Assembly (NCBI GenBank): GCA_030706745.1
Contig: JAUZNX010000019.1
Location: forward strand, 1 to 53,587
DNA length: 53,587 nt
Direction: 5' to 3'
DNA from: Bacteroidota bacterium
GTDB lineage: Bacteria > Bacteroidota > Ignavibacteria > Palsa-1295
In this document: piece by piece, positions 4,557-43,796 of the stretch
How the letters are laid out: each line of letters begins with the position of its first letter
Numbering within the stretch: the first letter of the stretch is position 1
The notes under the pieces: model-generated
What the model was told of the DNA's origin: nothing
Seen by the model: the letters and a program-made list of their open reading frames with translations, nothing else
The model's database searches: none
Translations under genes and position numbers: made by a program

Positions 4557-4595
4557 TTCAACAACAACTTTTAACAACGTAACCGTAATAAGATC

Positions 4596-4976: not shown

Positions 4977-5000
4977 GTGAGTTACGAGAATGTACTCAGC

Positions 5001-5027
5001 AAGCCCCGGCAAATTGCCGGGGCTTTT
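5001..5027 (+). terminator. intrinsic terminator of rplJ-rplL
   Basis: AAGCCCCGGC (5001-5010), loop AAATT, GCCGGGGCTT (5016-5025), then TT. The stem is a perfect 10 bp, GC-rich and ends in a short T-run 25 bases after the rplL stop. It is the clearest rho-independent terminator in the window. Confidence 0.9.
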
Positions 5028-5153
5028 GCGTTTATTGCATACGAATTCACACCCTGGCTCCTGTAACAAAATGAAGATTCGGAAGTTATTCGCCCAGAAG
5101 GCTGTTACCTTTTCGGAGTTGAGTGGTCATCTTAGAATAGAACCGAACCAACC

Positions 5154-16117: not shown

Positions 16118-17932
16118 GTGGCCGAACCGCTGACGTTAGCCCGCATTCGCAATTTTTCGATCATCGCGCACATCGATCATGGCAAGTCTACGCTTGCCGA
16201 TAAGCTGCTGCTGGAAACCCATACGATCGAAGCTCGCGAGATGACCAGCAATCAGGTCCTCGACGATATGGCGCTCGAGCAGGAGCGTGGCATTACGATC
16301 AAGCTGCACGCCATTCAGATGAAGTATCGGGGCGGCGATGGCGAGGACTACATCTACAACCTGATCGATACACCCGGTCACGTCGATTTCACATACGAAG
16401 TGAGCCGGAGCCTTGCCGCCTGCGAGGGCGCGCTACTTGTTGTGGACGCCACCCAGGGTGTTGAAGCACAGACCATCGCCAACCTCTATCTGGCCATCGA
16501 TGCGGGACTCGAAATCATCCCGGTCCTGAACAAAGTCGACTTGCAGTCTGCGATGGTGGAGGAAGTAAGCCACCAAATCATGGAGTTGCTTGGGTGCAAA
16601 CAGGAGGATATCATCCTTGCCAGCGCCAAAGCGGGAATTGGGATCAAGGAGGTGCTGGAGGCGATCCGTCTTAAGATTCGTCCTCCGAAAGGAGATGTTA
16701 CTGCGCCGCTCCGCTGCCTGATTTTCGATTCGATTTTCGATTCGTATCGTGGCTCGGTCGTCTATATGCGTGTCTTTGATGGCACGATCAAAGAAGGCGA
16801 CGAAATCCTCTTCATGGCGACCAAGCAGAAATACCGCGTGGAAGAACTCGGTACTCTGCGGATGGGCCGCGAGAAGAAGTCATCCCTTTCGGCGGGGGAT
16901 GTCGGCTATCTAATCGCCGGTGTCAAAGATGTGAAGGACACGCGCGTGGGTGATACGGTCACCAGTTTCCGCGGTGGAGCGACCGAGCCGATCTCTGGCT
17001 TCAAAGTTTCGAAGCCGATGGTCTTTGCCGGCGTCTATCCGCAATCGGCCGAGGACTTTGCGATGCTCAGGGACGCGCTGGATAAGCTTTCGCTCAATGA
17101 CTCCTCACTGATCTACGAACCCGAAAGCTCCGTGGCGCTTGGCTTTGGTTTTCGATGTGGATTTTTGGGTCTGCTTCACATGGAGATCATCCAGGAGCGA
17201 CTGGACCGCGAGTTCAACCAGAACATTGTCACCACGGTGCCGAACGTAGAGTACCACGTTCTGACGACGAAGGGCGATGTCGTCGTTGTCGATAACCCCT
17301 CGGCGATGCCTGAGCCGGGGAGGATTGAAGGGGTGGAGGAGCCGTTCATCAAGGCGCAGATTATCTGCCCCTCGGAGTACGTCGGCTCGATCATGAAGCT
17401 TTCGAATGAACGGCGCGGCGTTTACAAGACGACGACTTATATCGATCCAACCCGCGCCGACATTCACTATGAGTTTCCGCTCTCAGAGATCATTTTCGAT
17501 TTCTACGACAAGCTGAAATCCATCTCGCGCGGCTATGCATCACTCGATTATGAATTCCTCGAGTATCGCATGAATGACCTCGTGAAGCTCGATATTCTGC
17601 TCAATGGCGATCCGGTCGATGCGTTCTCGACGATTGTTCATCGGGATAAGTCGTTCGAGTGGGGTAAGAAACTTTGCTCGAAACTTCGGGAGCTGATTCC
17701 ACGTCAAATGTTCGATATTGCCATTCAGGCAGCCATCGGACAGAAGGTCATCGCACGCGAGACGGTCAAGGCGCTCCGTAAGGACGTAACTGCAAAGTGC
17801 TACGGCGGTGATATCTCACGCAAACGGAAGTTGCTCGAAAAGCAAAAAGAAGGCAAAAAGCGGATGAAGCAAGTGGGCCGAATCGAAGTCCCGCAGGAAG
17901 CCTTCATGGCCGTATTGCAAATTTCGGATTAG
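16118..17932 (+). CDS. lepA: translation elongation factor 4 (LepA/EF4)
   Basis: This 604-residue GTPase back-translocates or remodels ribosomes and is often cotranscribed with lepB. The G1 loop AHIDHGKST is at residues 17-25; [13 protein letters not shown] and SAKAGIGI follow as G3, G4 and G5. EF-G-like domains II, III and V are followed by the LepA-specific C-terminal domain ([13 protein letters not shown] ... [29 protein letters not shown]). Length is the usual 595-605. The GTG start at 16118 is preceded by AAAAGGAAAG about 10 bases upstream, one of the few Shine-Dalgarno-like sequences here. lepB starts 5 bases after its stop. Confidence 0.98.
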
Positions 17933-17937
17933 CATAC

Positions 17938-18915
17938 ATGGCAGATAATACAAATACAGGAAATCGTACTCGCAGCTATGCGGAGATTCGCGCGGCGCGC
18001 GACGCGAAACAACAGTCCGATCCGCCAAGCGCGAATGGTAAACCCGTGCGGAAGAAAGAGAGCTGGTGGCGTTCACTGCTCATCGCGTTTTTAATCGCGG
18101 GTGTCCTGCGAACCTTCTTCATCGAAGCATTTCGTATTCCTACTGGCTCGATGAAGAACACGCTCCTCGTGGGTGATCATCTGTTTGTCAACAAGATTGG
18201 GTACTTCATCGAAAGTCCGAAGTACATTCCGTTTACGACGATCGAGATTCCCCATGTTCATATCAAGACCTGGGGCATTCATCGTGGTGATGTCGTCGTG
18301 TTTGAATATCCCGGCGATCGCGACGATGTGGTGCCTCGCGAGAAAGACGTGAAGTACATTAAGCGTTGCATAGGCGAGCCCGGCGATGTGATTCAGATCG
18401 TCAATAAGCAAGTATATGTGAACGGCAGGATCTTCCCGAATCCCAAGGAATCGATTCTTGAGCCCGATACACAGAAGGTTGGTTTTGTAGAGGCAAATAT
18501 CTTTCCGAAAGGTGCGCAGTGGAACCGCGATAACTTCGGACCGCTTCGGGTGCCTAAGGCAGGCGACACAATCATGCTGACGAAAGAGAGCCTCGATCGC
18601 TGGCAAGTCTTTATCGAACGCGAAGGTCACAAGGTCGAGCTCGCATCGAACGATCAGGTATTGGTCGATGGCAAGCCGACACTCGAGTACCGTGTCCAGC
18701 GCGATTATCTTTGGATGATGGGCGATAATCGGGATGACTCCGAAGATTCTCGATTCTGGGGTTTCGCGCCAGTCGATAACGTTGTCGGTTCCGGCTTGAT
18801 TATCTATTGGTCATGGTACAATCCGCCGTCATCGGGCAATGGCGATGGCTACGATCCGGATGAAGTTCAGAACACCCACGTCCGATGGGGCCGGATGGGC
18901 AGAATCATCCATTAA
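17938..18915 (+). CDS. lepB: signal peptidase I
   Basis: The 325-residue inner-membrane serine protease removes Sec signal peptides from exported proteins, including the many envelope proteins in this window. An N-terminal charged region is followed by one membrane segment (residues about 45-62, SLLIAFLIAGVLRTFFI). Catalytic Ser71 lies in PTGSMKNTLLVGDHLFVNK; the general-base Lys142 lies in YIKRCIGEPGD. The GDNRDDSEDSRFWG box near residues 261-274 is the substrate-binding motif. The loop between the boxes is long, as in Bacteroidota enzymes. It is in an operon with lepA (5-base gap). The C-terminal WSWYNPPSSGNGDGYDPDEVQN region looks like a lineage extension. Confidence 0.95.
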   Translation: MADNTNTGNRTRSYAEIRAARDAKQQSDPPSANGKPVRKKESWWRSLLIAFLIAGVLRTFFIEAFRIPTGSMKNTLLVGDHLFVNKIGYFIESPKYIPFTTIEIPHVHIKTWGIHRGDVVVFEYPGDRDDVVPREKDVKYIKRCIGEPGDVIQIVNKQVYVNGRIFPNPKESILEPDTQKVGFVEANIFPKGAQWNRDNFGPLRVPKAGDTIMLTKESLDRWQVFIEREGHKVELASNDQVLVDGKPTLEYRVQRDYLWMMGDNRDDSEDSRFWGFAPVDNVVGSGLIIYWSWYNPPSSGNGDGYDPDEVQNTHVRWGRMGRIIH

Positions 18916-19050: not shown

Positions 19051-20250
19051 ATGAGTCAGCAACCCCTTAGCGCCTATCTCCACATTCCGTTCTGCGAACG
19101 GAAGTGCGTATACTGCGACTTCTATTCGATAGAAAACCTCTCGCTTCGGTCGGAGTTCGTCGATCTCTTGATCCGCGAAATCGATATGAAGCTAACGCGC
19201 TATCCTGAGTTGGCGCGCAGGCCGCTTCAGACCATATTCTTTGGTGGTGGAACACCATCATTGCTCACTTCCACTGAGTTGGAGCATATCGTTGCAAAAC
19301 TCGATTCTCACTTCGGAATTGCGAACGAATGCGAGTTTACACTTGAATGCAATCCAGGCACAATTACGATTGAAAAGCTGCGCGGCTATCGCGAACTCGG
19401 TGTCAATCGACTGAGCTTTGGAGTGCAGTCGTTCGATGCGGATGAGCTTCGCTTTCTGGGCCGTATCCACGATGCTGATGAGTCGCGCGCGGCCATTCGA
19501 TTGGCGCGTGAAGCCGGATTTGACAATGTCAGTCTCGATCTCATATTCGCATTGCCAGGTCAAACAGAAGTAACACTCCGGAACACGCTTCGCGAGGCGA
19601 TTGCTCTGGAGACGGATCACATCAGCGCCTACAACCTGACTGTCGAGCATGGCACGCCACTCTATCGGCTGGTGAAACAGAAGAAGGTGATCGAGCTCGA
19701 TCCAGATCGAGCGGCAGGACTGTTCGATCTTGTGCAACAGACTCTTTCAGACGCAGGCTTCGAACAGTATGAGATTTCAAATTATGCCCGGAGCCCCGAG
19801 ACCAGAGCCAAGCACAATCTTGTCTATTGGGATGGCTTCAAGGACTACGTTAGCTTTGGTCCATCCGCCCACGAGTTCGTTAGTGGCGAGCGTGCGTGGA
19901 ATGTATCATCACTCGAACAATATGGGAAGATGATCGAGCGCGGCGAGTTGCCTCGCATCAATTCCGAGCGGCCGTCACTCGATGAACGCCGGATCGAAGT
20001 TCTCTACGTTCAGCTTCGCTCGACAGGTATCCGGCTTGCGGAATTCGAGGAAGCATTCAGGGAGGCTCTGCTGTTGCATCCCGAAGTCCAGTACTTCCTC
20101 GGAGATGGATTGCTGCGAGTGGATGGCGATCTGCTTCGCCTGACCCCTCAGGGCTACCGATTCTGCGATGGTATTGTGACGAAACTCGTATCCCACCCGC
20201 AAGGGCAACCGAGCTATACATTGCCGGTCGTATCCGCCGAGGCACTTTAG
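19051..20250 (+). CDS. hemW: radical SAM protein HemW (heme chaperone)
   Basis: The 399-residue protein is a HemN-related radical SAM protein of the HemW type, which transfers heme to respiratory enzymes rather than oxidising coproporphyrinogen. C15, C19 and C22 in CERKCVYC bind the 4Fe-4S cluster. HIPFC, FGGGTPSLL, CNPGTIT, LSFGVQSFD, DLIFALPGQT and the HemW-type C-terminal region (HNLVYWDGFKDYVSFGPSAHEF) are in the usual order. It lacks the extra N-terminal residues of HemN, and its length fits HemW (370-400). It starts 15 bases after the long inverted repeat. The next gene begins 41 bases downstream on the same strand. Confidence 0.93.
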   Translation: MSQQPLSAYLHIPFCERKCVYCDFYSIENLSLRSEFVDLLIREIDMKLTRYPELARRPLQTIFFGGGTPSLLTSTELEHIVAKLDSHFGIANECEFTLECNPGTITIEKLRGYRELGVNRLSFGVQSFDADELRFLGRIHDADESRAAIRLAREAGFDNVSLDLIFALPGQTEVTLRNTLREAIALETDHISAYNLTVEHGTPLYRLVKQKKVIELDPDRAAGLFDLVQQTLSDAGFEQYEISNYARSPETRAKHNLVYWDGFKDYVSFGPSAHEFVSGERAWNVSSLEQYGKMIERGELPRINSERPSLDERRIEVLYVQLRSTGIRLAEFEEAFREALLLHPEVQYFLGDGLLRVDGDLLRLTPQGYRFCDGIVTKLVSHPQGQPSYTLPVVSAEAL

Positions 20251-20290: not shown

Positions 20291-23152
20291 ATGCGCCCAG
20301 AATTCAAACGCATACACTATTATCTGGCCGGCTTCACGTTCGTTGTCGGCTTCCTGACGTATCTCCTCACGATGCAGCCGACGATCCCGTTCTGGGATTG
20401 TGGCGAGTTCGCTGCCGCCGCGAGTGCCTTGCAGGTGCCGCATCCGCCGGGCGCGCCACTCTGGACCGTCGTTGGTCGCATTGCGATGTTGCTGCCGACC
20501 TTCGCAGATCCGGCCGCACGTTACAATCTTTTTTCCGTGCTGAGTTCCGCACTCTCGATCCTATTGCTCTATCTCACCCTGGTCCGTTTGCTCCGCATGT
20601 GGCGGGGCAATCCGAAATCGGCACAGGATGCCATTGTTACATTTGGTGGTGCACTCATTGGGGCATTGGCCTATTGCTGGACTGATAGCTTCTGGTTCAA
20701 TGCGCTCGAGTGCGAAGTGTATGCATTCGGTTCACTCTTTATCTCCTTGGTGCCTTGGTTGATTCTTGTCTGGCATGAGCATGCCGATGAACCACACAAT
20801 GAGCGATACCTGCTACTGATCGCGTTTGTGATTGGCCTGTCACTCGGGGTCCATCAGCTCGCGTTGCTCACGATGTTTCCGGTTTTTATGATCGTCTATT
20901 ATAAGAAGCGGAAGATTGTTACGCTAATGAGTTGGCTTGGGATGGTCGGCTTATCGGTCGCGATGTTCGTATTGGTATTTTACGTAATCTTGTCCAAACT
21001 GGTCGATTGGGCCGGCAGTGGCAATTGGGTCTTATCCGTGGCGATCCTCGTAGCGATTGTCGGAGTAATCATATATGGTCAGCGAAAGAGGAACGCTCGC
21101 GTCGCACTCGCCGGATGGTCGCTTGCGATGGTATTTCTTGGCTATACAACTTATATGTTCGTGATGGTCCGCGCCGCGCAGAATCCACCGATGAACGAGA
21201 ATGCGCCCTCGACATTCTCGAAGCTTTCGGGATATATTAATCGCGATCAATACGGCCAGATGAGCATTGCCGATGAGTTTACACACCGCCGATTGCCGCA
21301 GCAGCGAGATGACCACGGGAACACATGGAATAACTATACAAGCGACGGAGATTTCTTCTGGCGCTACCAGACCAACTGGATGTTCCATCGCTATCTCGGG
21401 TGGAATTTCATTGGCCGCGATGGTGACTTCATGGGCGCTGGTGTTGATTTTTCCAAGACCTGGGCGATTCCATTTTTCCTCGGTCTGTTCGGGATATACT
21501 GGCACTTCAAGCGCGACCCCAAGCGAGGTTTGACGCTGCTCGGTGCTTTTATCATTATGGGGTACTTGGTTGACTGGTACCAGAACCAGCAAGACCCACA
21601 GCCACGCGAGCGAGATTACTTCTATGTCGGTGCTTTCTATATTTTCGCGATGTGGGTCGGCATTGGAGCGGTTGGCATCATGGAGATCGTCAAGGAAAAG
21701 TGGGCCGATTGGGACAAGCGCAAGATGACCTTCGCGCTCGGAATATCCGCTGCACTGTTGCTGATCCTTGGTCCGATCAATCAGTGCATCGGACTTGCTG
21801 GACTGGCTTCCGGCCAAAGCTTCGCAAAGTCAAGTAAGTGGGCAGAATACTCGCGCAAAAACAACTGGGTGCCATGGGAATACGCTTATAATATCCTGCA
21901 AAGTTGTGATGCGAATGCAATCCTATTCACATGGGGCGATAACGACACCTTTCCACTCTGGTGCCTACAGGATTCCTATGGCATTCGGAGGGATGTACGA
22001 ATCGTCCAGCTCCAGCTCGCCACGATGATGTGGAACGCCGAACAAGTCGCGCAGAAGAACGATTGGGGATCCGAGGGAGTACGGCTCCAAATCTATACGC
22101 CTGCGCGAATGCAGCTTCCATCGGACAATGAAGCGTACGAAGCCATTCAGCAAGCTCGGGACTGGAAAGCGCCATTCATCATACCGGTTAATGACGCACA
22201 GGCGCGATGGATTTCAGGCGATTCCACCGCACATGCGACTACTATGACCTGGGCACCGAAGATTGTGAACTTCAGCGATTTTCTGGTCGCTGATATTGTC
22301 AACTCCAATCTTGGTACGCGCCCAATCTGCTATTCTGTGACGGTACCCGAGAATGCGCGCGCGGGTCTGAATAAATTCCTGATTTATGAAGGCCTCGTTG
22401 CGCGCGTGACGCCGTTCCAACAGCCGGAGGACATGACCGGTCTCGCTGGGAGCGTTCAGCCCGTTCGCTATAGCGAGATGATGTTCCAACGTCCACAGCA
22501 GCCGCACGCCGAACCGTTTCGCGGGTTGATTCTTCACTCCTATGCTGATCCCACTTCACATCTGAGCGGTATGGATGAGGATTACGCAATGACCTATCGG
22601 TATGATTTCATGCGTCTTGCCGATTGGGATGTTAGTCACGCCGATTTTCTCGGTGCACGTCGGACATTGGACTCCATGGAGGCCCTCATCCCGGTCCATC
22701 GGATTGGAATGGATTTCTCCTTTGCGTCATTCATCGCCGACTTGGCGGATAAAGCCGGTGACTGGCCACTGACACAGAAATATGCCGCGTATGGCGCTGC
22801 CAAACTGCGCGAGCAAATGCAGAATCCGGACTGGACGGAAAGTAACTCGCAGTCCCACCCGGATGTCCAGCTTGCGAACCTGGAAATGCGTGCTGGTGAA
22901 TTCGCCAGAGCTCGGAAGGACTTTGAAGCGATCCGTGGGCAATCCAAGCCGGATCAGCAAGGATTCGCAGATTTGAAGCTTCTGGAAGTCGATGCCCGAA
23001 GGCTTGAATCGGAGAAGAAATATGACTCGGCCTACCACAAGTACAATGAAATTCTCCAAGCCTATGCTCCCTCCGCCACGCGTGGGGCGGACCTGCAGGA
23101 TCTGAAGAATCGGGCTTGGTTTGATTCGGTCAACATGGCGAAGCCTCGCTAA
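20291..23152 (+). CDS. DUF2723 membrane protein (GT-C fold, O-mannosyltransferase-like), first copy
   Basis: The 953-residue protein has an N-terminal membrane domain of roughly ten or more helices (residues about 10-530) and a soluble periplasmic or C-terminal domain with TPR-like helices. IPFWDCGEFAAAA with an acidic pair near residues 37-40, and VPHPPGAPLW, are the family signatures of DUF2723, which is grouped with TMEM260-type O-mannosyltransferases (GT-C fold, polyprenyl-phosphate sugar donors). A conserved WYQNQQDPQPRERDYFYVGAF loop and FTWGDNDTFPLWCLQ follow. A paralogue lies immediately downstream, and a GT2 polyprenyl-phosphate sugar synthase is two genes further. This supports a role in protein or lipid O-glycosylation at the inner membrane. 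The acceptor is not known. Confidence 0.85.
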   Translation: MRPEFKRIHYYLAGFTFVVGFLTYLLTMQPTIPFWDCGEFAAAASALQVPHPPGAPLWTVVGRIAMLLPTFADPAARYNLFSVLSSALSILLLYLTLVRLLRMWRGNPKSAQDAIVTFGGALIGALAYCWTDSFWFNALECEVYAFGSLFISLVPWLILVWHEHADEPHNERYLLLIAFVIGLSLGVHQLALLTMFPVFMIVYYKKRKIVTLMSWLGMVGLSVAMFVLVFYVILSKLVDWAGSGNWVLSVAILVAIVGVIIYGQRKRNARVALAGWSLAMVFLGYTTYMFVMVRAAQNPPMNENAPSTFSKLSGYINRDQYGQMSIADEFTHRRLPQQRDDHGNTWNNYTSDGDFFWRYQTNWMFHRYLGWNFIGRDGDFMGAGVDFSKTWAIPFFLGLFGIYWHFKRDPKRGLTLLGAFIIMGYLVDWYQNQQDPQPRERDYFYVGAFYIFAMWVGIGAVGIMEIVKEKWADWDKRKMTFALGISAALLLILGPINQCIGLAGLASGQSFAKSSKWAEYSRKNNWVPWEYAYNILQSCDANAILFTWGDNDTFPLWCLQDSYGIRRDVRIVQLQLATMMWNAEQVAQKNDWGSEGVRLQIYTPARMQLPSDNEAYEAIQQARDWKAPFIIPVNDAQARWISGDSTAHATTMTWAPKIVNFSDFLVADIVNSNLGTRPICYSVTVPENARAGLNKFLIYEGLVARVTPFQQPEDMTGLAGSVQPVRYSEMMFQRPQQPHAEPFRGLILHSYADPTSHLSGMDEDYAMTYRYDFMRLADWDVSHADFLGARRTLDSMEALIPVHRIGMDFSFASFIADLADKAGDWPLTQKYAAYGAAKLREQMQNPDWTESNSQSHPDVQLANLEMRAGEFARARKDFEAIRGQSKPDQQGFADLKLLEVDARRLESEKKYDSAYHKYNEILQAYAPSATRGADLQDLKNRAWFDSVNMAKPR

Positions 23153-23209
23153 GCCGCTATTTTTCAGGAGTTTTCCCCACTGTTCATGAGTTCATTGTCG
23201 CTCAGTATG

Positions 23210-23233
23210 GCACCGGAGGCCTGCCTCCGGTGC
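23210..23233. other. 11-bp inverted repeat between the DUF2723 genes
   Basis: GCACCGGAGGC (23210-23220), CT, GCCTCCGGTGC (23223-23233) is a perfect foldback in the 126-base gap between the two DUF2723 genes. No T-run follows, so it is not a standard terminator. It may be another dispersed palindrome. Confidence 0.5.
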
Positions 23234-23278
23234 TGCCCGAGGTTCTCTTCAGAACGATCAAGGTTTTAGACGATACAA

Positions 23279-26200
23279 ATGCAGATAAAACGCATCCATT
23301 ACGTCCTCGCCGCGCTCAGCTTTCTGGTGCCGCTGATCACCTATGTTACGACGATGCAACCCTCGATCCCGTTTTGGGATTGCGGCGAGTTCATCTCCGC
23401 TGCCTCACAATTAGGGGTGACGCATCCGCCGGGCGATCCTACGTGGACGCTTTTGGGACGCGTCGGTGGGATGCTACCCTTTTTCAGCGATCTGGCCGCC
23501 CGCTACAATTTTCTTTCTGCATTGTGCGGGGCTATCTCAGTGATGTTGCTGTATCTTATTGCCGTCCGCGTGATCAAGATTTGGCGTGGCACTCCGCAGA
23601 CGCTTTCGGATGCGATCACGCACATGGGTGGGGCATTCGTTGCCGCACTCGCGTTCACATGGAGCGATAGTTTGTGGTTCAACTCCAGCGAGTTTATCGT
23701 CTTTTCGCCCGGTCTCCTGTTTATCATGCTCATCCTCTGGATCGCAATGCTGTGGCATGAACGCGCCGAGGAAAAAGGCAACGAGCGATATTTGATGTTA
23801 ATCTTTTATCTGCTTGGACTTTCGATCGGCGCCCACCAAATGTCAATGCTGGCATTTTTCCCCGTGTGGGTTATCGTATTCTACAAGCATTGGAAGAAAG
23901 TGACGTGGGGGCACTGGTTCGCGATGTTCGTCGCTGGTGTGCTCTCCTTCCTTTATATTTACAAAGTCGTTCTGACCGGCCTTGTTGGCTGGGCTGGTTC
24001 GGGCCTTGGCATCATTTCAGCGCTCATCGTCATCGGCTTGATAGGTGGTACGATTTACACGATGAAGGAGAAGAAGGCGTTCGCCAATCTTTTGTTGTGG
24101 GGTGGTTTGCTCGTGCTGCTTGGATACACGACATACACCTTGCTGATGATCCGTGGCGTGCAAGACCCGCCGATGAACCAGCACCGCCCGACCACATTTG
24201 CCGCGCTGCATGAATATGTTGCGCGTGAGCAATATGGCGAGGCACGCGAATTCCCTCGTCGTGACGATCGGCCTGAAGTCAAAGGCGACCCGCTGCACAA
24301 TCCGACGTGGGATCCAAACAAATCATCGTCTGGCGCGGCCTATACGAGCGATATTGATTTCTGGTGGCGCTACCAGACAGTACACATGTACCTTCGCTAT
24401 CTGGGATGGAGCTATATTGGAAGGGCCAATGACAGTCAGGATGCTACTACCGATTGGACGAAGACGTTTGGCATTCCCATTATACTTGGAATGTTTGGGC
24501 TGTTCTGGCATTTCAAGCGGGATCCGAAACGAGCCCTAGCGTTTCTTGCGGCGTTCCTCGTCATGGGCCTGCTTACCGATTGGTACCAGAATCAGCAGGA
24601 CGCGCAGCCTCGTGAGCGCGACTACTTCTATGTCGGATCGTTTGCGGTATACGCCATGTGGATCGGCATAGGTGCGACGGGGCTAATGGAATTGCTGCGA
24701 GCGCGGCTTGCGAAGAAACAAAATCTGCCGATGCAGGATGCTGGTCCGAAAGACCGGGAAGTCATGGAGAAGCCGGACGAAAAGGTCCCGGTCCTCCGAG
24801 GCGAGGGACCACTCGGCCTGCTGGCTGGCACTTTCGCACTTGCGCTTGTTCTCGTGCCAATCAATCAATGCATTGGCCTGGTTGGCATGGGCGTGTTTGG
24901 TCAGAGCTTTCATCAAGCCTCAAAATGGGGCGAATACTCACGCCAGCATAATAACGTCCCGCTTGAATACGCATATAATATTCTTCAAAGCTGCGATCAG
25001 GATGGTATCCTGTTCACGGCCGGCGATAACGATACCTTCCCACTTTGGTGTATTCAGGATCTCTATGGGGTTCGGCGCGATGTGCGTATCGTGAACCTCT
25101 CGCTGGGCAATATGGGATGGTATGTCAAGAAGTTGAAAGATGATGGTCCGTGGGGTTCCAAGAAAGTGAACTTGCCTTCGTTTACGGAAGAGCAGTTGAA
25201 CAATCCTGACGAGACGGCCGCCGGTATTCATTATACGGTCGGACCGCCATCCACGGTGACGGTTAACGTATCCGCCCCGGCCATGCAGCGATTCACCGGC
25301 GTTGCTCAGCCCGGCTCGTTTAGCTGGAAGTACGTGAGCCAGCATAAGCAGGAAGGCAGCGATCAGTATGTGTATCAGGTTGCAGATCAGTTGGTCCGAG
25401 ATATTGTCGCGAGCAACTTCAACGATCGGCCAATCTATTTTGCAGTGGCCGTGCCGCCGAGCTATTGGGTCGGTCTGGACGAGCACATCCTGTTCGAAGG
25501 TCTGACCGCGCGTGTCGTACCAACGATCCATAAAGCATCTCGACAACTGATCGATGGTGATATCAACGAAGGACCATACGAGGAAACCGCGTATCGCACG
25601 GTTCCAATGGTCTATACCACCCCGTATCGTGGAATGCTGTTGAATAGCTATCGCGACCCACGTTCGAATCGTAGTTCGCTTGATGATAAGTATGGAACGA
25701 CGACGTACTTCGAACTGTACGCGCGCATGGCGAACTACTTCATTCAACGCAACCGTATGGCGGATGCTCATCGGGCGCTCGATACGTTGAGCGCGAGAAT
25801 GCCTCCGGCGCTCGTCGACTGGGATTATACGTTGCTCCAGTTTATCGGACAGCTGTATCAGGCGACCGGCGATCCGAAGAGTGCATTACACTATACGCAA
25901 CTCGCGGCTGCAAAGCTCAGCTCGCTGCCGCAAGAAGAAGCGGCGGATGTCGGCACCCAGTTGCAGAATGACTTCCGAAGAGGCGATTTATACTACAGCG
26001 CACAACAGTACGACTCGGCACGAGCGATATTCTCTGCCTTGCGTCCCCAGGTCGAAGGCGGCAATAAACTGTTTATTGATTTCCGCCTCGAGCAAATCGA
26101 TGTAAAGCTTTTGGAAAACAAAGGCGATAAACGCGGGGCGCTGGCCAAGATGAGCAGCATGCTCACCAAGTATCAGGGCCTCAGTCAGATGGGCGTCGGC

Positions 26201-26365
26201 AATGAGCTTCAGTCACTTCAGCAGGAGCGCGATCGCTTGGCTGCCGAGCTGGGCATGACTGATTCCGTAAAGGATTCTCCCGCATCGCCGGTAGTCCCGA
26301 ATCCGGATATCAACAGAGCGCCCAACGATACTGGTGGCACCAAGCCAAAGCCTTCGAAAAAGTAA
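23279..26365 (+). CDS. DUF2723 membrane protein (GT-C fold, O-mannosyltransferase-like), second copy
   Basis: The 1028-residue paralogue shows the same order of signatures: MQPSIPFWDCGEFISAASQLG near residues 27-47, VTHPPGDPTW, WYQNQQDAQPRERDYFYVGSF, and FTAGDNDTFPLWCIQDLYGVRRDVRIVNLS. An extra cytoplasmic-looking insertion (KKQNLPMQDAGPKDREVMEKPDEKVPVLRG region) distinguishes it from the first copy. The C-terminal third has TPR-like helices and ends in a Pro/Lys-rich tail (NDTGGTKPKPSKK). Tandem paralogues of this family are common in Bacteroidota and Chlorobiota genomes. The two probably act on different acceptors or sugars; this is inference. Confidence 0.85.
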   Translation: MQIKRIHYVLAALSFLVPLITYVTTMQPSIPFWDCGEFISAASQLGVTHPPGDPTWTLLGRVGGMLPFFSDLAARYNFLSALCGAISVMLLYLIAVRVIKIWRGTPQTLSDAITHMGGAFVAALAFTWSDSLWFNSSEFIVFSPGLLFIMLILWIAMLWHERAEEKGNERYLMLIFYLLGLSIGAHQMSMLAFFPVWVIVFYKHWKKVTWGHWFAMFVAGVLSFLYIYKVVLTGLVGWAGSGLGIISALIVIGLIGGTIYTMKEKKAFANLLLWGGLLVLLGYTTYTLLMIRGVQDPPMNQHRPTTFAALHEYVAREQYGEAREFPRRDDRPEVKGDPLHNPTWDPNKSSSGAAYTSDIDFWWRYQTVHMYLRYLGWSYIGRANDSQDATTDWTKTFGIPIILGMFGLFWHFKRDPKRALAFLAAFLVMGLLTDWYQNQQDAQPRERDYFYVGSFAVYAMWIGIGATGLMELLRARLAKKQNLPMQDAGPKDREVMEKPDEKVPVLRGEGPLGLLAGTFALALVLVPINQCIGLVGMGVFGQSFHQASKWGEYSRQHNNVPLEYAYNILQSCDQDGILFTAGDNDTFPLWCIQDLYGVRRDVRIVNLSLGNMGWYVKKLKDDGPWGSKKVNLPSFTEEQLNNPDETAAGIHYTVGPPSTVTVNVSAPAMQRFTGVAQPGSFSWKYVSQHKQEGSDQYVYQVADQLVRDIVASNFNDRPIYFAVAVPPSYWVGLDEHILFEGLTARVVPTIHKASRQLIDGDINEGPYEETAYRTVPMVYTTPYRGMLLNSYRDPRSNRSSLDDKYGTTTYFELYARMANYFIQRNRMADAHRALDTLSARMPPALVDWDYTLLQFIGQLYQATGDPKSALHYTQLAAAKLSSLPQEEAADVGTQLQNDFRRGDLYYSAQQYDSARAIFSALRPQVEGGNKLFIDFRLEQIDVKLLENKGDKRGALAKMSSMLTKYQGLSQMGVGNELQSLQQERDRLAAELGMTDSVKDSPASPVVPNPDINRAPNDTGGTKPKPSKK

Positions 26366-26388
26366 CCTGCGTAGCGGAGTTCAGACTG

Positions 26389-27126
26389 GTGTTCTTATCA
26401 CTTATTATTCCGGCCTACAACGAGGCCGGGCGGATTGGGCCTTCTTTGGAGAAGGCCTTCCGGTATTTTGAGAGCAAAGACTACGATGTCGAACTCATTG
26501 TCGTCGACGATGGATCGAGCGATAACACGATCCAGGCCGTCGATATAGCATTTGCAAAAAAGCCGCCGATGCTCGAGCGTGTAAGTACGCGACTCATTCC
26601 ACTTGGCGTGAACACGGGCAAGGGTGCGGCGGTGAAGCGTGGGATGCTTGCCGCGTCCGGCGCGGTTCGAATCTTTACGGATGCCGATTTTTCCACGCCC
26701 ATTGCGGAAGTGGGGAAGATCATTCAACCGATTGCGTCTGGCGAATGTGATATCGTGATCGGCAGCCGGGCTGCGGAAGGTCGAGCGCTGGTCAAGAAAC
26801 ACCAGCCCTGGCATCGCGAGATGATGGGGCGGTTCTATAATGTCCTCGTGCAGTTGTTAGTCTTTCGAGGGATTAAAGATACACAGTGTGGATTTAAGGG
26901 CTTTAGCGCAGCGGCGGCCGAAAAGGTTTTTGCGAAGCAGCAGGTCATGGGATTTTCATTCGATGTCGAAATTCTCTATCTCGCGCATCGATACGGATTT
27001 CGCATCCGCGAAATCGCCATTGAATGGTACAACGACGAGCGGACTACAGTCGGTGCAGTAACCGATTCTGCGAGAATGTTCTGGGAATTGCTTCGCATTC
27101 GAAACCTGCATCGGAACGACCGATAA
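26389..27126 (+). CDS. GT2 family polyprenyl/dolichyl-phosphate sugar synthase-like glycosyltransferase
   Basis: The 245-residue GT-A protein begins FLSLIIPAYNEAGRIGPSL, followed by ELIVVDDGSSDNTIQ and the metal-binding FTDADFSTPIAEV (D-x-D). NTGKGAAVKRGMLAASGAVRIF and QCGFKGFSAAAAEKVF are typical of the ALG5/DPM1 group that makes dolichyl-phosphate glucose or mannose. No C-terminal membrane helices follow, as in the short forms. It starts at GTG 26389, 24 bases after the DUF2723 stop. In this setting it could supply the polyprenyl-phosphate sugar used by the flanking GT-C proteins; the exact sugar cannot be read from sequence. Confidence 0.88.
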   Translation: MFLSLIIPAYNEAGRIGPSLEKAFRYFESKDYDVELIVVDDGSSDNTIQAVDIAFAKKPPMLERVSTRLIPLGVNTGKGAAVKRGMLAASGAVRIFTDADFSTPIAEVGKIIQPIASGECDIVIGSRAAEGRALVKKHQPWHREMMGRFYNVLVQLLVFRGIKDTQCGFKGFSAAAAEKVFAKQQVMGFSFDVEILYLAHRYGFRIREIAIEWYNDERTTVGAVTDSARMFWELLRIRNLHRNDR

Positions 27127-27248
27127 GACCGGATTATGGAGAACCGATAGAGAGCAAGAGGCAATAATTGGCTGCAACAGTTAAGTCGACAGGGCAAAAA
27201 GCAAAACATGCTACCGAGCGGAGTCGCCCGCTCGCGGCGGGTGGTAGT

Positions 27249-29507
27249 ATGTCAAAAGCTGCAGTGCTTCGCAGCTTCTCTCCATGGTATGTTGTTGGTT
27301 TCTTCGTCCTGCTCACCATTATTTTCCACTCGGATATTCTTCTCGGTGGCAAATTCTTATGGGAAGATTTCGTCGAGCAGGAATTTCCATTCCGCACGCT
27401 GGCAGCAAGTTCGCTTGCACAAGGTATCCTCCCACAATGGAACCCGTATGTTTTCGCCGGAATGCCATTCATGGCCGATATTCAAGTCGCATTCTGGTAT
27501 CCATTCAATATGGTGCAAGCACTGTTCGTATCGGACGGGTTTCTTTCACCAAATGTGATGCAGTGGTTCAGCCTCATGCACTTCGCGATCGCGGGGATTG
27601 GGATGTACTGGTTCGCGAAGAAAATTCTTGCCGTCGATGATTGGTCCGCCGTCTTTGCTGGCATTGCATACGCATTTGGCGGATACATTACAGCTCAGGC
27701 GATCCACCAGATGATCGTCTATCATATTGCACTTTTTCCGTGGGTTGCATACTTCTTCGTTCGCGGGTTCGATTCATGGCGGCATGCTATCATTGCGGGA
27801 CTTGTGCTCGGTGTGATGTATCTTGCGGGACATCCGCAGTCAACCCTTTATTTCACATTCCTTCTCGCACTGCTCGCAGTCTATGAGATCGTCCATCGGC
27901 TAAGAACTAAGACCGAACAGGAGGGGCCAGGTGAATCGAATGTGTTGCCCGTCGTGAGAATGGTGCTTCCAATTGTGATCGGCCTCGGCATCTTTGCGAT
28001 TCAGTACTTGCCATCACAAGAGTTGGCCGATCTCTCGCGCCGCGATACCATCACATACGAGAAGTCGCTCGACGGCTCGCTTTCATGGGGTCATCTATAC
28101 ACTTTTGTTTTGCCACGGCTTTTTGGCGTCACGACTGGCGATCCTTCGAACGCAAAAGTCCCATATTGGAACGGGGCTTACTACAACTCGTGGGAGACAT
28201 CAATCTACATTGGCATACTGCCGCTGTTTTTTGCGATCATGGCCGGGCTTATTGCTCGCAAGCGGAAATACGTGCCATTCCTGGCCGGCATTGGCCTTTT
28301 AGCTGTCCTGTTTGCGCTGGGCGATCACTTCTTCTTATACAAGCTGTTTTTCCAGCTTCCGCTCTTCAGCAAATTTCGTACGCCCGCGCGTATGATGATG
28401 CTCTTTAGCTTTGCGGCGAGCGCACTCGGAGGAATCGGTCTTTCCGAAGCCCTGAAATCGGAACGCCCCAAATGGGGCGCGAATGGGGGATGGATTATTC
28501 GAGGTCTTCTCACGCTGCCATGGCTGCTGGCCATTGCAGGAATGCTGCATGCCACCAGCTTTTTCAAGGGAGCACCTGCCGAATCACAGGCCTCAATTCC
28601 CTGGGCGGCCGGACTGGCCACCTTCCCAGTGCTTGCAATGCTGGCCGTAACAGGTTTGCACTATTTGGGTAAATTGCGTGGCAATATGCTGGCTACGCTG
28701 ACCATCGGCGTCACGATCATCGAACTGTTTACTTATGGCATGTCCTTGAACGCGAGTCCGACTGATCCACGCGAGGCTTATCGCGAGCAGCCACAACTGA
28801 TCGACATGCTCAAGCAGGATCAGGCGAAAGAACTTAGCCGTGCGCGAACACGGATTGGTGGGCAGATGCTCGTCCGCCGAAACCAGGGCGCATACGACCG
28901 CATCCAACTTGTCGAGGGATATGATCCGCTCGTGTTACAGCGGGTCTTCCCAGAAATGGCAAATCCGGAAGCAAGCGCCGATTTGATGAACATCAAGTGG
29001 TCGATCATGCCAGGGAAGCAGCCTGGATTCGGTCCGAGGCCAGGCTATATGCCGCGTGTCAAGCTCTATTACCAGTCAGTGGTCCTACCAGACAGTCAGG
29101 CGCTCACGAGATTGAAGCAAGATTCCAATTTCGACTACCGGAACACGATCCTGCTTGAAGAGCAACCAACATCAGCGATCGGTCCTGCTGACGCCGCCGG
29201 CGTTGCGACCGTCTCCAAGTATGGTGACAATGAAATTACTGTTTCGGTAACGACGGGTGCGAACGCGATGCTATTTCTTTCGGAGATCTACTATCCGGCA
29301 TGGAACGCCTATCTCGATGGCAAGCCTGTGAAGCTCTATCGTGCGTTCACGTCATTACGGGCGGTCGAGGTGCCGAAAGGCGTTCACACTGTGACGCTCC
29401 GGTACGAATCGCAAGCATTTGCGCGCGGTAGTTGGATTACGATTGCTACGCTAGTGCTGAGCCTCGGAGCATTGGGCTTCCTCAAGCTTAGGAAGAGAAG
29501 CACATAG
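27249..29507 (+). CDS. YfhO-like polytopic membrane protein (GT-C fold)
   Basis: Starting at ATG 27249 gives 752 residues; a TTG start at 27168 would add 27 Lys/Arg-rich residues. The protein has about 12-13 membrane segments, beginning FSPWYVVGFFVLLTIIFHSDIL. LWEDFVEQEFPFRTLAASSLAQGILPQWNPYVFAGMPFMAD is the conserved first periplasmic loop of the YfhO/GT-C family, with the acidic residues expected to bind substrate. In Bacillus, YfhO transfers GlcNAc or related sugars onto lipoteichoic acid and other membrane-linked acceptors. The C-terminal soluble domain contains LFLSEIYYPAWNAYLDGKPVKLYRAF, the usual YfhO ending. It follows GT2 and precedes GT9 with a 2-base gap, so it belongs to the glycosylation group. 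Confidence 0.85.
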   Translation: MSKAAVLRSFSPWYVVGFFVLLTIIFHSDILLGGKFLWEDFVEQEFPFRTLAASSLAQGILPQWNPYVFAGMPFMADIQVAFWYPFNMVQALFVSDGFLSPNVMQWFSLMHFAIAGIGMYWFAKKILAVDDWSAVFAGIAYAFGGYITAQAIHQMIVYHIALFPWVAYFFVRGFDSWRHAIIAGLVLGVMYLAGHPQSTLYFTFLLALLAVYEIVHRLRTKTEQEGPGESNVLPVVRMVLPIVIGLGIFAIQYLPSQELADLSRRDTITYEKSLDGSLSWGHLYTFVLPRLFGVTTGDPSNAKVPYWNGAYYNSWETSIYIGILPLFFAIMAGLIARKRKYVPFLAGIGLLAVLFALGDHFFLYKLFFQLPLFSKFRTPARMMMLFSFAASALGGIGLSEALKSERPKWGANGGWIIRGLLTLPWLLAIAGMLHATSFFKGAPAESQASIPWAAGLATFPVLAMLAVTGLHYLGKLRGNMLATLTIGVTIIELFTYGMSLNASPTDPREAYREQPQLIDMLKQDQAKELSRARTRIGGQMLVRRNQGAYDRIQLVEGYDPLVLQRVFPEMANPEASADLMNIKWSIMPGKQPGFGPRPGYMPRVKLYYQSVVLPDSQALTRLKQDSNFDYRNTILLEEQPTSAIGPADAAGVATVSKYGDNEITVSVTTGANAMLFLSEIYYPAWNAYLDGKPVKLYRAFTSLRAVEVPKGVHTVTLRYESQAFARGSWITIATLVLSLGALGFLKLRKRST

Positions 29508-29509
29508 CG

Positions 29510-30616
29510 ATGCGCCGCGAAAAGATCGTCCTGCTCGCCATGCCCGGCATCGGAGACGCCTTGCTCTCGACGCCGATGATCGAGCTGCTGCGTCGCGCGA
29601 AACCGGAGGCCGAAATCCATGCCTTCGTCATGTTTGCGGCGACACGCGAAATGTTCGAGCAGGATCCCTACATCGACCGCGTTCATCATTACGATTTCTT
29701 AAATGGGTCGAAGTCGGGGGCGCTGAAGTTTGTCTCCGATCTGCGCAAAATGCGGTTTGACATTTCGATCAACATCTATCCGCAAAACCGGCGCGAGTAC
29801 AATCTGATCGCATTCCTGATCGGTGCGAAGCAGCGCATCGGCGTCCGCTATCGCCGGCGCGATCCGCAAAACCTGAGCTGGCTGAATACGAAGACGATTC
29901 TCGAAGATGATACGCTGCATTGTGTCGAGGAGAACGTTCGTCTTCTTTCGCTCATCGACATTCCGCACGAGCTTGGCGAATCCTCACTTCCGCCGCTTCG
30001 ATTAACCCTTAGTGAGAAGCATCTGGCGTTCGCTGATCAGTGGTGCAAGAGTCACCTTCGTGGTGACGAGCAATTGCTGATCGGCTTCCATGCTGGCACC
30101 GCACTCTTCAAAAATCACATTCGCCGACGCTGGGCGCCGGAGAAATTCGCGGAGTTGGCAAAGCGGCTGACGTCGGATTTAGGTGCTCGCGTTCTGCTGT
30201 TCGGAGGACCCGATGACTCGGATGCGAACCGGGAGATTCTCTCGCTGGCAGGGGAGTGCATCACGATGGTCGAGACGAAGAGTATACTCGATTCCGTGGC
30301 AGTTATGCGGCGATTGAATATGTTCGTCTCGAATGATTCAGCGCTGATGCACATCGCCGGTGCGCTTGAACTGCCAACAGTCGCGATCTTCGGCCCGACG
30401 AACGAGACATACGTCCATCCCTGGCGGACGCGCTACACTATCGTCCATACGGGCATCGAATGCAGGCCGTGTTTCATCTATTCCCCCAAGCCGCTGACCT
30501 GCTACCGTAAGGACCCGTCGGAGCACTTTATCTGTATACGCGCGATAGAAGTGGCGAGAGTCTTCAATGAAGCGAAGATGATGGCGAAGCCGGATCCTAT
30601 GCCGCCTGCGGCGTAA
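29510..30616 (+). CDS. GT9 family glycosyltransferase (heptosyltransferase-like)
   Basis: The 368-residue protein has the ADP-heptose:LPS heptosyltransferase layout. The N-terminus KIVLLAMPGIGDALLSTPMIELLRRAKPEAEIHAFV is the donor/acceptor entrance motif with GDALLSTP. The C-terminal half has IGFHAGTALFKNHIRRRWAPEKFAELAKRL, VLLFGGPDDSDANREIL, and FVSNDSALMHIAGALELPTVAIFGPTNETYVHPW, which bind the nucleotide sugar. Members build inner-core LPS or related surface glycans. It is separated from the YfhO stop by 2 bases and overlaps the convergent DHH gene by 20 bases. A specific sugar cannot be assigned. Confidence 0.88.
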   Translation: MRREKIVLLAMPGIGDALLSTPMIELLRRAKPEAEIHAFVMFAATREMFEQDPYIDRVHHYDFLNGSKSGALKFVSDLRKMRFDISINIYPQNRREYNLIAFLIGAKQRIGVRYRRRDPQNLSWLNTKTILEDDTLHCVEENVRLLSLIDIPHELGESSLPPLRLTLSEKHLAFADQWCKSHLRGDEQLLIGFHAGTALFKNHIRRRWAPEKFAELAKRLTSDLGARVLLFGGPDDSDANREILSLAGECITMVETKSILDSVAVMRRLNMFVSNDSALMHIAGALELPTVAIFGPTNETYVHPWRTRYTIVHTGIECRPCFIYSPKPLTCYRKDPSEHFICIRAIEVARVFNEAKMMAKPDPMPPAA

Positions 30617-31637
30617 GCAGCCCCGCAGCCGCCAGCACCGTCTCCGCATTTGCGACAATCCGCTCGTGCATCTCGGCCAGCGTATGCTCGCCATGCACGC
30701 GAGCACCAGCAGCATTGAAGTGTCCGTTGCCACCAAACGACTGTGCAAACATCGCCGCTGATACGGGGTCTTTCGAGCGTGTCGAAATCTTCCAACCCTC
30801 CTTCAATTCGAGAAGGAATACCGAAAGCACAATGCCACCAACCTGAAATGGCATTTGCACGAACCCATCGACATCCTCTTCGTCCGCGTTAGCAGCATGA
30901 AGCTGAGCCTGCATGATACATTGGAACGCCATGTGGCCATCGTAGTGATACTCGAGGGAATTCAACGCATCACGCAGCAACAACAGTCGTCCCGCCGGCG
31001 ATGTATTATACACTTCGTGGTATGTCCGCACCGGATCGGCGCCAAGATCGATTAGGTCAGCGCACATGCGGAGCAGTTCGGAATCCGTTCTCGGAAAGCG
31101 GAAGCTTCCGCTATCGGTCATGATCGCGACATAAAGCGCATTCGCCGCCTTCTTGCTGATTGTACCACCCAATTCTGGCTGCGCCGCGCGAACAAGGCGC
31201 ACAATCATCTCGCCCGTTGACGATGCATCGGTATCGAGGAAATATTCCTTTGCGAACGGCTTGGGGTTCAGGTGATGATCGATGACCGCAACGTGCTGTG
31301 TCCCGCCGGTAAGATATTTTCCCAGCGAGCGCGTGCGTTCGGGATCATTGACATCGAGCACGAGAATTACATCTACACCGTGGACAATGCCCTCGTGCTT
31401 TTGGGGATCGTGCTGCTCAATAATGGGCCGCTCCTCATCGAAGAACATGTAATTGTAGGGAGTTGGCGAGTGATTGATGACCCGAACCGATTTGCCGATG
31501 GAGAGGAGCCATTCGGCCAGGCCGATTTCGGAGCCGAGGGCGTCGCCATCGGGATTGACGTGCGTGGTGATCCCGAACGACTGGTGCTCGCGAATCAAGC
31601 GTATAAAAGAAGCGACATCGAGTATTTGTTCTGCCAT
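30597..31637 (-). CDS. nrnA: DHH/DHHA1 phosphoesterase (NrnA-like oligoribonuclease/pAp phosphatase)
   Basis: Starting at ATG 31637 gives 346 residues; an in-frame upstream start at 31676 adds 13 Gly/Pro-rich residues and is less likely. The DHH domain shows THVNPDGDALGSE (residues about 25-37), LVLDVNDPERTRS and the name-giving DHH in VAVIDHHLNPKP, which together bind two metals. The DHHA1 domain ends with FGGNGHFNAAGA, the GGGH-type substrate motif. NrnA proteins degrade short RNAs and dephosphorylate 3'-phosphoadenosine 5'-phosphate. Bacteria without Orn often use them, and no Orn is seen here. It is convergent with GT9 (20-base overlap) and divergent from the M1 peptidase. Confidence 0.9.
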   Translation of the reverse strand: MAEQILDVASFIRLIREHQSFGITTHVNPDGDALGSEIGLAEWLLSIGKSVRVINHSPTPYNYMFFDEERPIIEQHDPQKHEGIVHGVDVILVLDVNDPERTRSLGKYLTGGTQHVAVIDHHLNPKPFAKEYFLDTDASSTGEMIVRLVRAAQPELGGTISKKAANALYVAIMTDSGSFRFPRTDSELLRMCADLIDLGADPVRTYHEVYNTSPAGRLLLLRDALNSLEYHYDGHMAFQCIMQAQLHAANADEEDVDGFVQMPFQVGGIVLSVFLLELKEGWKISTRSKDPVSAAMFAQSFGGNGHFNAAGARVHGEHTLAEMHERIVANAETVLAAAGLLTPQAA

Positions 31638-31720
31638 AAGAGAGCCGTGAACACCGCCTGCCGCCGGAGGATTCATCCGGCTCGAATTATTCGTGTGTCA
31701 TTCGTTTTTGATTCGTTACT

Positions 31721-33637
31721 ATGAAACTCTCGGCTATCATTGGTATTACCTTGATTATACTCGCACCGCTGCATTTTGTCCGCGGTCAGTCAGTCACGTA
31801 TATTGATACAGATTCGACGTTCCGTGTGACTTACGTTCGATTTGAGCTTACCGTGCGTCCTGACACAGAATACCTCATCGGCAAAGTGACGCTCCGTTGC
31901 GTTGCTCGTGCAATGCCTGCCGGCCATCCGATGCGTCTGAGCATGCGCTCGGTGCTTTCGATCGATACCTTAACCGCCGGCGGAGTAGCAGCAGCATACA
32001 ATCACGTGGACGATACACTCTATCTCACTCCATCGGCAGCATACAGTCCCGGTGAGGTCTTTGATGTTGCCATCGCTTATCATGGTTACTCGTATGGTGC
32101 GTATATTCACACTTTCCAGGATTGGCAACCGACAGGAATTCCAATCATCTGGACTGCGAGTGAGCCATTCGGATCGAAGCAGTGGTGGCCCTGCAAAGAT
32201 AATCCCGCGGAAAAGGTGGATTCGGCCGATCTATTAATTACATGCGATCTGCGCTATTCCATTGCTTCCAATGGCACGCTTCGGGCCGTAATCGATCATG
32301 ATACCTCACATACATTTTGGTGGCACGAATCATATCCAATCGACCACTACTTGCTTGCATTTGCGTGCACCGAGTTCGACACGCTAACACACTGGCACCG
32401 CTGGGCCGATGGCGACAGCACGCGTATTCTGAATTATGTCTTCCCGGTCTCGACAGATACAATGCGCACCGATCTGCTATTGATCGATACGATTATCGAT
32501 CAATATGAAGCATGGTTCGGGCCTTATCCATTCCGGCGAGAGAAATACGGCACATGTCAATGGCATGGCGGCGGAATGGAGAATCAAACCCTCTCATTCT
32601 GTAACGATGCGGATTGGAGTCTCCTCGCACACGAAACGGCACACCAGTGGTTCGGCGATGGTATTACTTGCAAAACGTGGAATGATTGCTGGCTCAATGA
32701 AGGCTTTGCGACTTATGTAACGGATCTATTTGGAAGGCGGCGCTTTGGACAGTCATGGGTGGACACTGATTTCTCCCTCGCGGAAGCGTACGTGACCGAA
32801 GTGACGGATGGCAGGGTCCACCAGACGGATAGTGTGTTCCAGAATGCTCCGGATGATTACCAGCGCGGTAAACGCGTGTTGGATGGCCGATTGGTGTACG
32901 CAAAACCGGGTCTCGTTCTTCACATGCTGAATTACGTTCTCGGAAGCGACACTGCCTTCTATCGCTGCGTCCGCGAATATATGATGGGTCCCCTGCGGTA
33001 TGGCGTCGCCTCAACGGAGGACTTTCGAGCTGCCATCGAAAGAGCTAGCGGCAAAGATCTCAAGTGGTTTTTCGATGAATGGATCTATGGAGATGGTTTC
33101 CCACAATACTCCATCGCGTGGTCCGAGCAAGATTCTCTTGTTTCGGTCGCGATCAGTCAGCGCGGGTCATCACCGAATAGTCCGTTCTTTGTCATGCCGA
33201 TCGAGTTGCGGTTTACCGGCCCTGGGCTCGATACGATGGTTCAGGTATGGAATAACCATCCTCTTCAGTCGTATGTTTTTCAACTATCAAAACCAGCTTC
33301 CCTGATCACGTTCGACCCACATAATTGGCTGCTTGATGGCGCTTCACCGCGGAGCATGCTGGTCCAGTCGTCGCCAAACAACCCTGCTAGACTATCTGTA
33401 ATGCGGGAAAGCAACGGAACGTATCAATTTACTTTCAATCTATTCGGTGCACCGAATGTCTGGCTTGAAATCTATGACGTAATGGGCCGGAGTGTCGGGT
33501 TTGTCGATGGCGGGATGATGGCAAACGGCACGGAGTCACTCCAATGGATTCCCAATGGTCTCGCAAGTGGCGTTTACTTTGGCAGGCTGACCACAGGATC
33601 GGGCATATCCACGATCCCGTTCGTGCTTGCTCCTTAA
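31721..33637 (+). CDS. secreted M1-family metallopeptidase with T9SS-like C-terminus
   Basis: The 638-residue protein begins with a signal peptide (MKLSAIIGITLIILAPLHFVRGQ). GGMENQT at 284-290 is the exopeptidase motif (GAMEN type), and HETAH at 304-308 with Glu327 in NEGFATY form the zinc site and catalytic Glu. KPGLVLHML carries the region of the transition-state Tyr. The last 80 residues (LEIYDVMGRSVGFVDGG ... LQWIPNGLASGVYFGRL) fit a T9SS type A sorting domain, although the usual final Lys/Arg tail is lost and it ends FVLAP. It is predicted to be an aminopeptidase acting outside the cell on peptides. Its stop overlaps the convergent DUF5723 gene by 3 bases. Confidence 0.9.
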   Translation: MKLSAIIGITLIILAPLHFVRGQSVTYIDTDSTFRVTYVRFELTVRPDTEYLIGKVTLRCVARAMPAGHPMRLSMRSVLSIDTLTAGGVAAAYNHVDDTLYLTPSAAYSPGEVFDVAIAYHGYSYGAYIHTFQDWQPTGIPIIWTASEPFGSKQWWPCKDNPAEKVDSADLLITCDLRYSIASNGTLRAVIDHDTSHTFWWHESYPIDHYLLAFACTEFDTLTHWHRWADGDSTRILNYVFPVSTDTMRTDLLLIDTIIDQYEAWFGPYPFRREKYGTCQWHGGGMENQTLSFCNDADWSLLAHETAHQWFGDGITCKTWNDCWLNEGFATYVTDLFGRRRFGQSWVDTDFSLAEAYVTEVTDGRVHQTDSVFQNAPDDYQRGKRVLDGRLVYAKPGLVLHMLNYVLGSDTAFYRCVREYMMGPLRYGVASTEDFRAAIERASGKDLKWFFDEWIYGDGFPQYSIAWSEQDSLVSVAISQRGSSPNSPFFVMPIELRFTGPGLDTMVQVWNNHPLQSYVFQLSKPASLITFDPHNWLLDGASPRSMLVQSSPNNPARLSVMRESNGTYQFTFNLFGAPNVWLEIYDVMGRSVGFVDGGMMANGTESLQWIPNGLASGVYFGRLTTGSGISTIPFVLAP

Positions 33638-43794: not shown

Positions 43795-43796
43795 AG

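Follow-up and report, generated by a model that had tools for sequence, protein, structure and literature searches.

What is the function of a row of five putative glycosylation genes (positions 20291-30616, all on the + strand) in a Bacteroidota genome, and which molecules would their products modify? The row lies within a 53,587-nucleotide stretch, here termed the window, which is contig C19 (JAUZNX010000019.1) of a 3.81 Mb genome with 30 contigs and 99.5% completeness (G000). It encodes two DUF2723 proteins (D1 and D2), a family 2 glycosyltransferase (GT2), a YfhO-type protein and a family 9 glycosyltransferase (GT9). The cassette is real and conserved, and its interpretation as a set of glycosylation genes is well supported. 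From computational comparisons, we consider the chances about even that DUF2723 transfers mannose from polyprenyl-phosphate-mannose to exported proteins, at serine or threonine (Ser/Thr) residues, and that the GT2, YfhO and GT9 genes linked to it are a lineage-specific add-on. Protein O-glycosylation is a general Bacteroidota feature, including in gut and oral species. The O-glycans of this phylum have a common reducing-end hexose (mannose)-deoxyhexose-hexuronate, with Tannerella as the stated exception (PMC12871550), and the residue they begin with is probably a hexose such as O-linked mannose (PMC10897501). According to a 2025 review (PMC12871550), the known locus does not encode the machinery that makes this core, and neither the oligosaccharyltransferase nor the ligase nor the core flippase has been discovered. 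The proposed DUF2723 activity matches this documented gap, namely, a transferase that starts Bacteroidota O-glycans.

All five open reading frames were confirmed where the original prediction had placed them. They are separated, in order, by 126, 23, 41 and 2 bases, so the description of rightward genes with gaps of 0 to 126 bases was essentially right. Every product exceeds the cut-off of its Pfam family (two DUF2723 proteins, a GT2, YfhO and GT9). A coding artefact is ruled out by protein-level conservation of all five genes. Recent horizontal acquisition is not supported because the DUF2723 tree follows taxonomic groups, D1 and D2 duplicated inside the family, and base composition is like that of the window.

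The earlier assignment of the row to glycosylation is supported, and DUF2723 shares homology with a protein O-mannosyltransferase. D1 and D2 score 196.6 and 168.2 bits, respectively, against PF11028 (curated cut-off 24.2). Compared by itself, D1 matches the solved structure of human TMEM260 (9rql) at 2.8e-15, and a profile of 64 bacterial homologues matches it with E 5.7e-34 over two co-linear segments, the GT-C module and a luminal segment. TMEM260 is classified as GT117 and is among the O-mannose initiating enzymes that use dolichyl-phosphate-mannose (Dol-P-Man); a role in substrate recruitment has been proposed for its tetratricopeptide repeats (TPRs; PMC11292533). Forty alignment positions are invariant among the bacterial homologues, including W35, D36, E39, H51, P53, G54 and P56 in the first loop, where a WDxGE...HPPG motif is nearly invariant and D36, E39 and H51 occur in 64/64 sequences. 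TMEM260 shares the D, E and H-P-P-G positions with the bacterial proteins.

An AlphaFold2 model of D1 (mean predicted local distance difference test score, pLDDT, 92.8; predicted template modelling score, pTM, 0.92) has its best structural matches in STT3/oligosaccharyltransferase (OST), ALG12, Pmt1-Pmt2, Pmt4 and ArnT, with Z values of about 20-22, which indicates a GT-C fold. Residues 806-952 align to HOP TPR2A (Z 9.6), and TPR matches also appear in the family-profile search. TMEM260 (9rql) is not among the structural matches of D1, so the likeness to it is one of sequence. A GT-C fold is also indicated for YfhO, which scores 50.1 bits against PF09586 (cut-off 28.5) and whose AlphaFold2 model (pLDDT 87.1) aligns with AftD (Z 21.9 over 565 residues) and with OST chains (Z about 20). 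With D2 being 43% identical to D1 and retaining the invariant residues, the three GT-C-like proteins of the original prediction are borne out. The prominence of STT3/OST chains among the best structural matches (Z 19-22) also invites a reading in which DUF2723 is an oligosaccharyltransferase (or ligase) that supplies D(S/T) sites with a whole core oligosaccharide from a lipid carrier rather than with one mannose. The published two-step model requires such an enzyme without naming it (PMC12871550), and DUF2723 is near-universal. We consider this improbable: sequence kinship is to TMEM260, an O-mannose initiator that uses Dol-P-Man (PMC11292533), and a lone-sugar donor enzyme of the DPM1 type is equally universal.

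PF11028 occurs in 197/198 Bacteroidota genomes and in only one of 14 control genomes, the Bacteroides. No protein O-mannosyltransferase of the PMT family (PF02366) exceeds the cut-off in the present genome. Families form groups in the DUF2723 tree, and of the two copies in family member G009 one falls in the D1 clade and the other in the D2 clade. The two genes therefore arose by duplication within the family, no later than the split between these family members. A third DUF2723 protein of 696 amino acids is encoded elsewhere in the genome (L076:7560-9647, - strand; G000:C1 about 534,000-536,000) and matches TMEM260 at 2e-30 in two segments; a similar second DUF2723 type of 600-720 amino acids is present in many genomes of the class. 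A literature search that spanned few subscription papers and no preprints found no paper on a bacterial DUF2723/PF11028 member.

Where would the mannose donor come from? The original prediction envisaged the adjacent GT2 as the enzyme that feeds the GT-C proteins. A GT-C pathway fed by a lipid-phosphate sugar is plausible. The window GT2 retains the DDG and DAD motifs and has no predicted transmembrane segment. Its best solved relative is a Dol-P-Man synthase at 3e-13, which is weaker than the 3.9e-30 of an unlinked protein (L162). Its KDTQCGFKGF...GFSFDVE stretch probably resembles ALG5, a dolichyl-phosphate-glucose synthase. The unlinked protein (G000:C4:167365-168105), which is 34% identical to the window GT2, is a DPM1-type GT2 whose 3.9e-30 match is to the Pyrococcus-type Dol-P-Man synthase 5mlz. 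Distribution separates the two: the window GT2 is found at E 1e-20 or better in only 14/118 Bacteroidota genomes, the DPM1-type synthase in 117/118 and, as noted, DUF2723 in nearly all. The linked GT2 is thereby ruled out as the general mannose donor enzyme, and the unlinked DPM1-type GT2 is, on sequence and distribution, the more likely general donor enzyme for DUF2723, with the linked GT2 as an add-on. Nor is the module complete, as it had looked: besides this conserved mannose-lipid synthase being on another contig, a GtrA/GtcA-type flippase (PF04138) has no match in the genome, although 7/14 control genomes are positive. The DPM1-type gene is surrounded by Wzz, Wzy_C, Polysacc_synt (Wzx-like), GT4, bacterial sugar transferase and DegT genes (L214, G000:C4:152000-171999), a region predicted to be a polysaccharide or O-glycan locus. 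In a distant Bacteroidota genome (G083), a dihydroorotase-like amidohydrolase gene follows the DPM1-type gene (L218:8479-10920).

Gene order indicates which member of the row is central. A related-locus search of genome contigs returned four loci, all from close relatives, and synteny was therefore read from genome-search regions. The gene order is conserved within the genus and partly within the family. The sequence lepA-lepB-hemW-D1-D2-GT2-YfhO-GT9 is kept in genus members G002, G003, G005 and G006, and in G001 across a contig break; in G004 the row is split, with hemW-D1 and D2-GT2-YfhO-GT9-DHH-M1 on separate contigs and well away from their ends. Among family members, the whole row is present in G009 and D2-GT2-YfhO-GT9 in G007, G008 and G011, with an insert of ~4 kb on the opposite strand separating GT2 from YfhO in G008 (L046 about 3452-6884, G008:C117). 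Across the class, lepA-lepB-hemW-DUF2723 recurs in families f1, f3, f12, f15, f16 and f17, and outside it in f21; the hemW-DUF2723 adjacency extends outside the class to f21, f24, f26 and f39. The genes that follow DUF2723 vary: GT2 fused to a methyltransferase, then YfhO-GT9 (f6); methyltransferase-GT9 (f8); GT9 alone (f10, f11); a 667-amino-acid protein with a TPR end, then methyltransferase-GT9 (f13); GDP-mannose dehydratase-epimerase-GT4, or GT4 (f12); methyltransferase-GT4 (f3, f17); GT2 (f4, f15); GT20 in one of two genomes (f16); and NAD-epimerase (f2). A sigma factor (f7) and a rhomboid gene (f14) are exceptions. A sugar gene is thus the first or second gene after DUF2723 in 12/15 class families, for which the chance probability is ~6e-7 at a 10% background of sugar genes and 6e-4 at 20%, where the background is assumed and the criteria were set after looking. 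Final Bacteroidota glycans are often methylated (PMC12871550), and methyltransferases next to DUF2723 would fit this.

DUF2723-GT2 pairs that lack YfhO (f4, f15) and DUF2723-GT9 pairs that lack GT2 (f8, f10, f11) argue that, across the class, DUF2723 is a hub that carries different glycan cargo by lineage. The same pairs bear on a very unlikely alternative, in which the row contains a three-component CsbB/GtcA/YfhO or Pgf unit (a lipid charged by GT2, turned by a flippase and used by YfhO for the transfer) with DUF2723 beside it by a chance of operon history. GT2-YfhO adjacency in f1 and f6 agrees with such a unit, as does a weak likeness of GT2 to PgfS and of YfhO to PgfM1/2, but the NCBIfam Pgf equivalogs score far under their cut-offs (PgfS 48.7 vs 500; PgfM1/M2 28.9 vs 1500 and 25.2 vs 1400) and the genome has no GtrA/GtcA-type flippase match. 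Teichoic acids are not expected in Bacteroidota. Units of this three-component kind have been described for lipoteichoic acid (PMC5836110, PMC7389260).

GT9 belongs to its superfamily (PF01075) and its best match is lipopolysaccharide (LPS) heptosyltransferase II (TIGR02195; 114.1 bits, under the cut-off of 134.6). It lies downstream of DUF2723 in six families (f1, f6, f8, f10, f11, f13). These observations can be taken to mean that DUF2723 acts like ArnT on an envelope glycolipid, transferring a polyprenyl-phosphate sugar to lipid A or the LPS core, while GT9 and YfhO build or decorate that core. The kdsA, kdsD and lptC types in the window, the kdsA/kdsD types 5-8 kb past DUF2723 in L053, L061 and L063, the LpxA-like acyltransferase directly after hemW-DUF2723 in f26 and f39 (L125:4919-5713, L148:11873-12751) and the ArnT structural match (Z 20) are all in keeping with this. 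Likeness to ArnT, however, is seen at the level of fold, whereas sequence homology reaches the protein O-mannosyltransferase TMEM260 over two segments, and the TPR tail suits a protein acceptor. We regard the glycolipid explanation as unlikely.

For DUF2723 as a protein O-mannosyltransferase, the homology, fold, conserved residues, gene order and distribution are shown, and the donor, the acceptor, the order of steps and a flippase are inferred. DUF2723 would be an inner-membrane GT-C enzyme of the TMEM260 (GT117) kind with its WDxGE...HPPG catalytic loop in the periplasm. With polyprenyl-phosphate-mannose as donor, this loop would glycosylate exported proteins on Ser/Thr, most likely with mannose, and the choice of acceptor would fall to the C-terminal TPR domain. 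The donor lipid would in turn most likely be a product of the unlinked phylum-wide DPM1-type GT2 rather than of the cassette GT2. In this lineage, DUF2723 would have been duplicated (D1, D2) and joined by the add-on set: the ALG5-type GT2 may charge the lipid carrier with a second hexose, which YfhO may then attach in the periplasm as a branch or an outer sugar, and GT9 may extend, in the cytoplasm, a glycan that is lipid-linked or belongs to the envelope. A broader version, which we hold tentatively and as possible rather than probable, is that DUF2723 starts the general O-glycan phylum-wide by transferring mannose from DPM1-made polyprenyl-phosphate-mannose to D(S/T) sites, and that the cassette is a lineage-specific extension.

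Several points weigh against this pathway. TMEM260 homology and the modelled GT-C fold fix neither donor nor acceptor, and the structural scores are equally good for ArnT, which acts on lipid A, and for STT3, which transfers an oligosaccharide. The published model builds a core disaccharide on undecaprenyl phosphate, which is moved by an oligosaccharyltransferase, rather than a lone mannose (PMC12871550). Outside the class, DUF2723 mostly lacks sugar neighbours, with f21, where GT2 adjoins it, as an exception. In G109, DUF2723 is present but no DPM1 match is better than 1e-16, and in G221 DPM1 is present but DUF2723 has no match; each case may be an assembly gap. Universal genes co-occur trivially, so the universality of DPM1 and DUF2723 is weak evidence of a functional link.

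The row is bounded upstream by a conserved flank and downstream by a DHH/DHHA1 gene (Table 1). Beyond the latter, an M1-family peptidase gene (31721-33637, + strand) adjoins the cassette; the C-terminus of its product resembles a sorting tail of the type IX secretion system (T9SS), which makes it a possible local cargo. The original prediction had suggested that the row acts on T9SS cargo. This link is speculation: the genome carries at least 150 T9SS tails and nothing found here connects them to the row genes. In Cytophaga hutchinsonii, glycosylation of a T9SS cargo tail is documented (PMC11858162). About 12 kb to the right of the cassette lie kdsA-like (DAHP_synth_1), kdsD-like (SIS+CBS) and lptC-like genes (42116-45086, - strand). 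The recurrence of kdsA/kdsD-like genes near DUF2723 in other families hints at a wider envelope neighbourhood.

Table 1. Genes of the cassette and its flanks, with positions in the window.
Feature	Position	Strand	Details
lepA	16118..17932	+	PF06421 LepA_C 3e-52; conserved upstream flank
lepB signal peptidase	17938..18915	+	PF10502 6.2e-42; conserved upstream flank
hemW radical-SAM gene	19051..20250	+	PF04055 2.8e-30 plus PF06969; conserved upstream flank
D1, DUF2723/TMEM260-like (GT117-type) GT-C with C-terminal TPR domain	20291..23152	+	953 amino acids; PF11028 4e-58
D2, D1 paralogue	23279..26365	+	1028 amino acids; PF11028 2.1e-49
GT2, putative soluble polyprenyl-phosphate-hexose synthase of ALG5/DPM1 type	26389..27126	+	GTG start, 245 amino acids; PF00535 3.3e-25
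YfhO-type GT-C with C-terminal beta domain	27168..29507	+	TTG start, 779 amino acids; PF09586 1.9e-13
GT9 cytoplasmic glycosyltransferase, heptosyltransferase superfamily	29510..30616	+	368 amino acids; PF01075 3.8e-31
DHH/DHHA1 (NrnA-like) gene, end of cassette	30597..31676	-	PF01368 2.5e-16; after GT9 in several genus genomes

The protein families considered here are already known. The case merits testing because DUF2723 has a hub role, occurs together with a DPM1-type gene that is unlinked yet near-universal, and suits a gap that the literature names for O-glycosylation in Bacteroidota. A near-universal TMEM260-like enzyme and a near-universal mannose-lipid synthase provide two named candidate genes in genetically tractable Bacteroidota. 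If the proposal is true, a human disease gene family would gain a more easily studied bacterial counterpart. The cassette itself illustrates how a lineage adds transferases to one hub gene.

Among known systems, human TMEM260 (GT117), an O-mannosyltransferase for plexin/IPT domains, shares with the bacterial proteins the PF11028 module, the second luminal segment and a comparable catalytic-loop motif (GGDSGEL...HPPGYPL in TMEM260, FWDCGEF...HPPGAPL in the bacteria), and is likewise a GT-C protein with a TPR tail (PMC11292533). The bacterial proteins differ in being longer (953-1028 amino acids, compared with 729 in the solved TMEM260 construct), in having an invariant GDNDTFP-like luminal motif and in sitting in a glycan gene row. 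The window GT2 resembles the ALG5/DPM1 polyprenyl-phosphate-hexose synthases in its DDG/DAD motifs, solubility and length of 245 amino acids, but is narrowly distributed. CsbB-GtcA-YfhO lipoteichoic acid glycosylation and the streptococcal Pgf system are similar in having GT2 adjoin a YfhO GT-C, and differ from this genome, which has no GtcA-type flippase. General O-glycosylation of the LFG type has in common with the present case the phylum, near-universal candidate enzymes and a reducing-end hexose or mannose (PMC12871550, PMC10897501); its described outer-glycan locus consists of metG, wzx and glycosyltransferase genes, whereas the row described here adjoins lepA-lepB-hemW instead.

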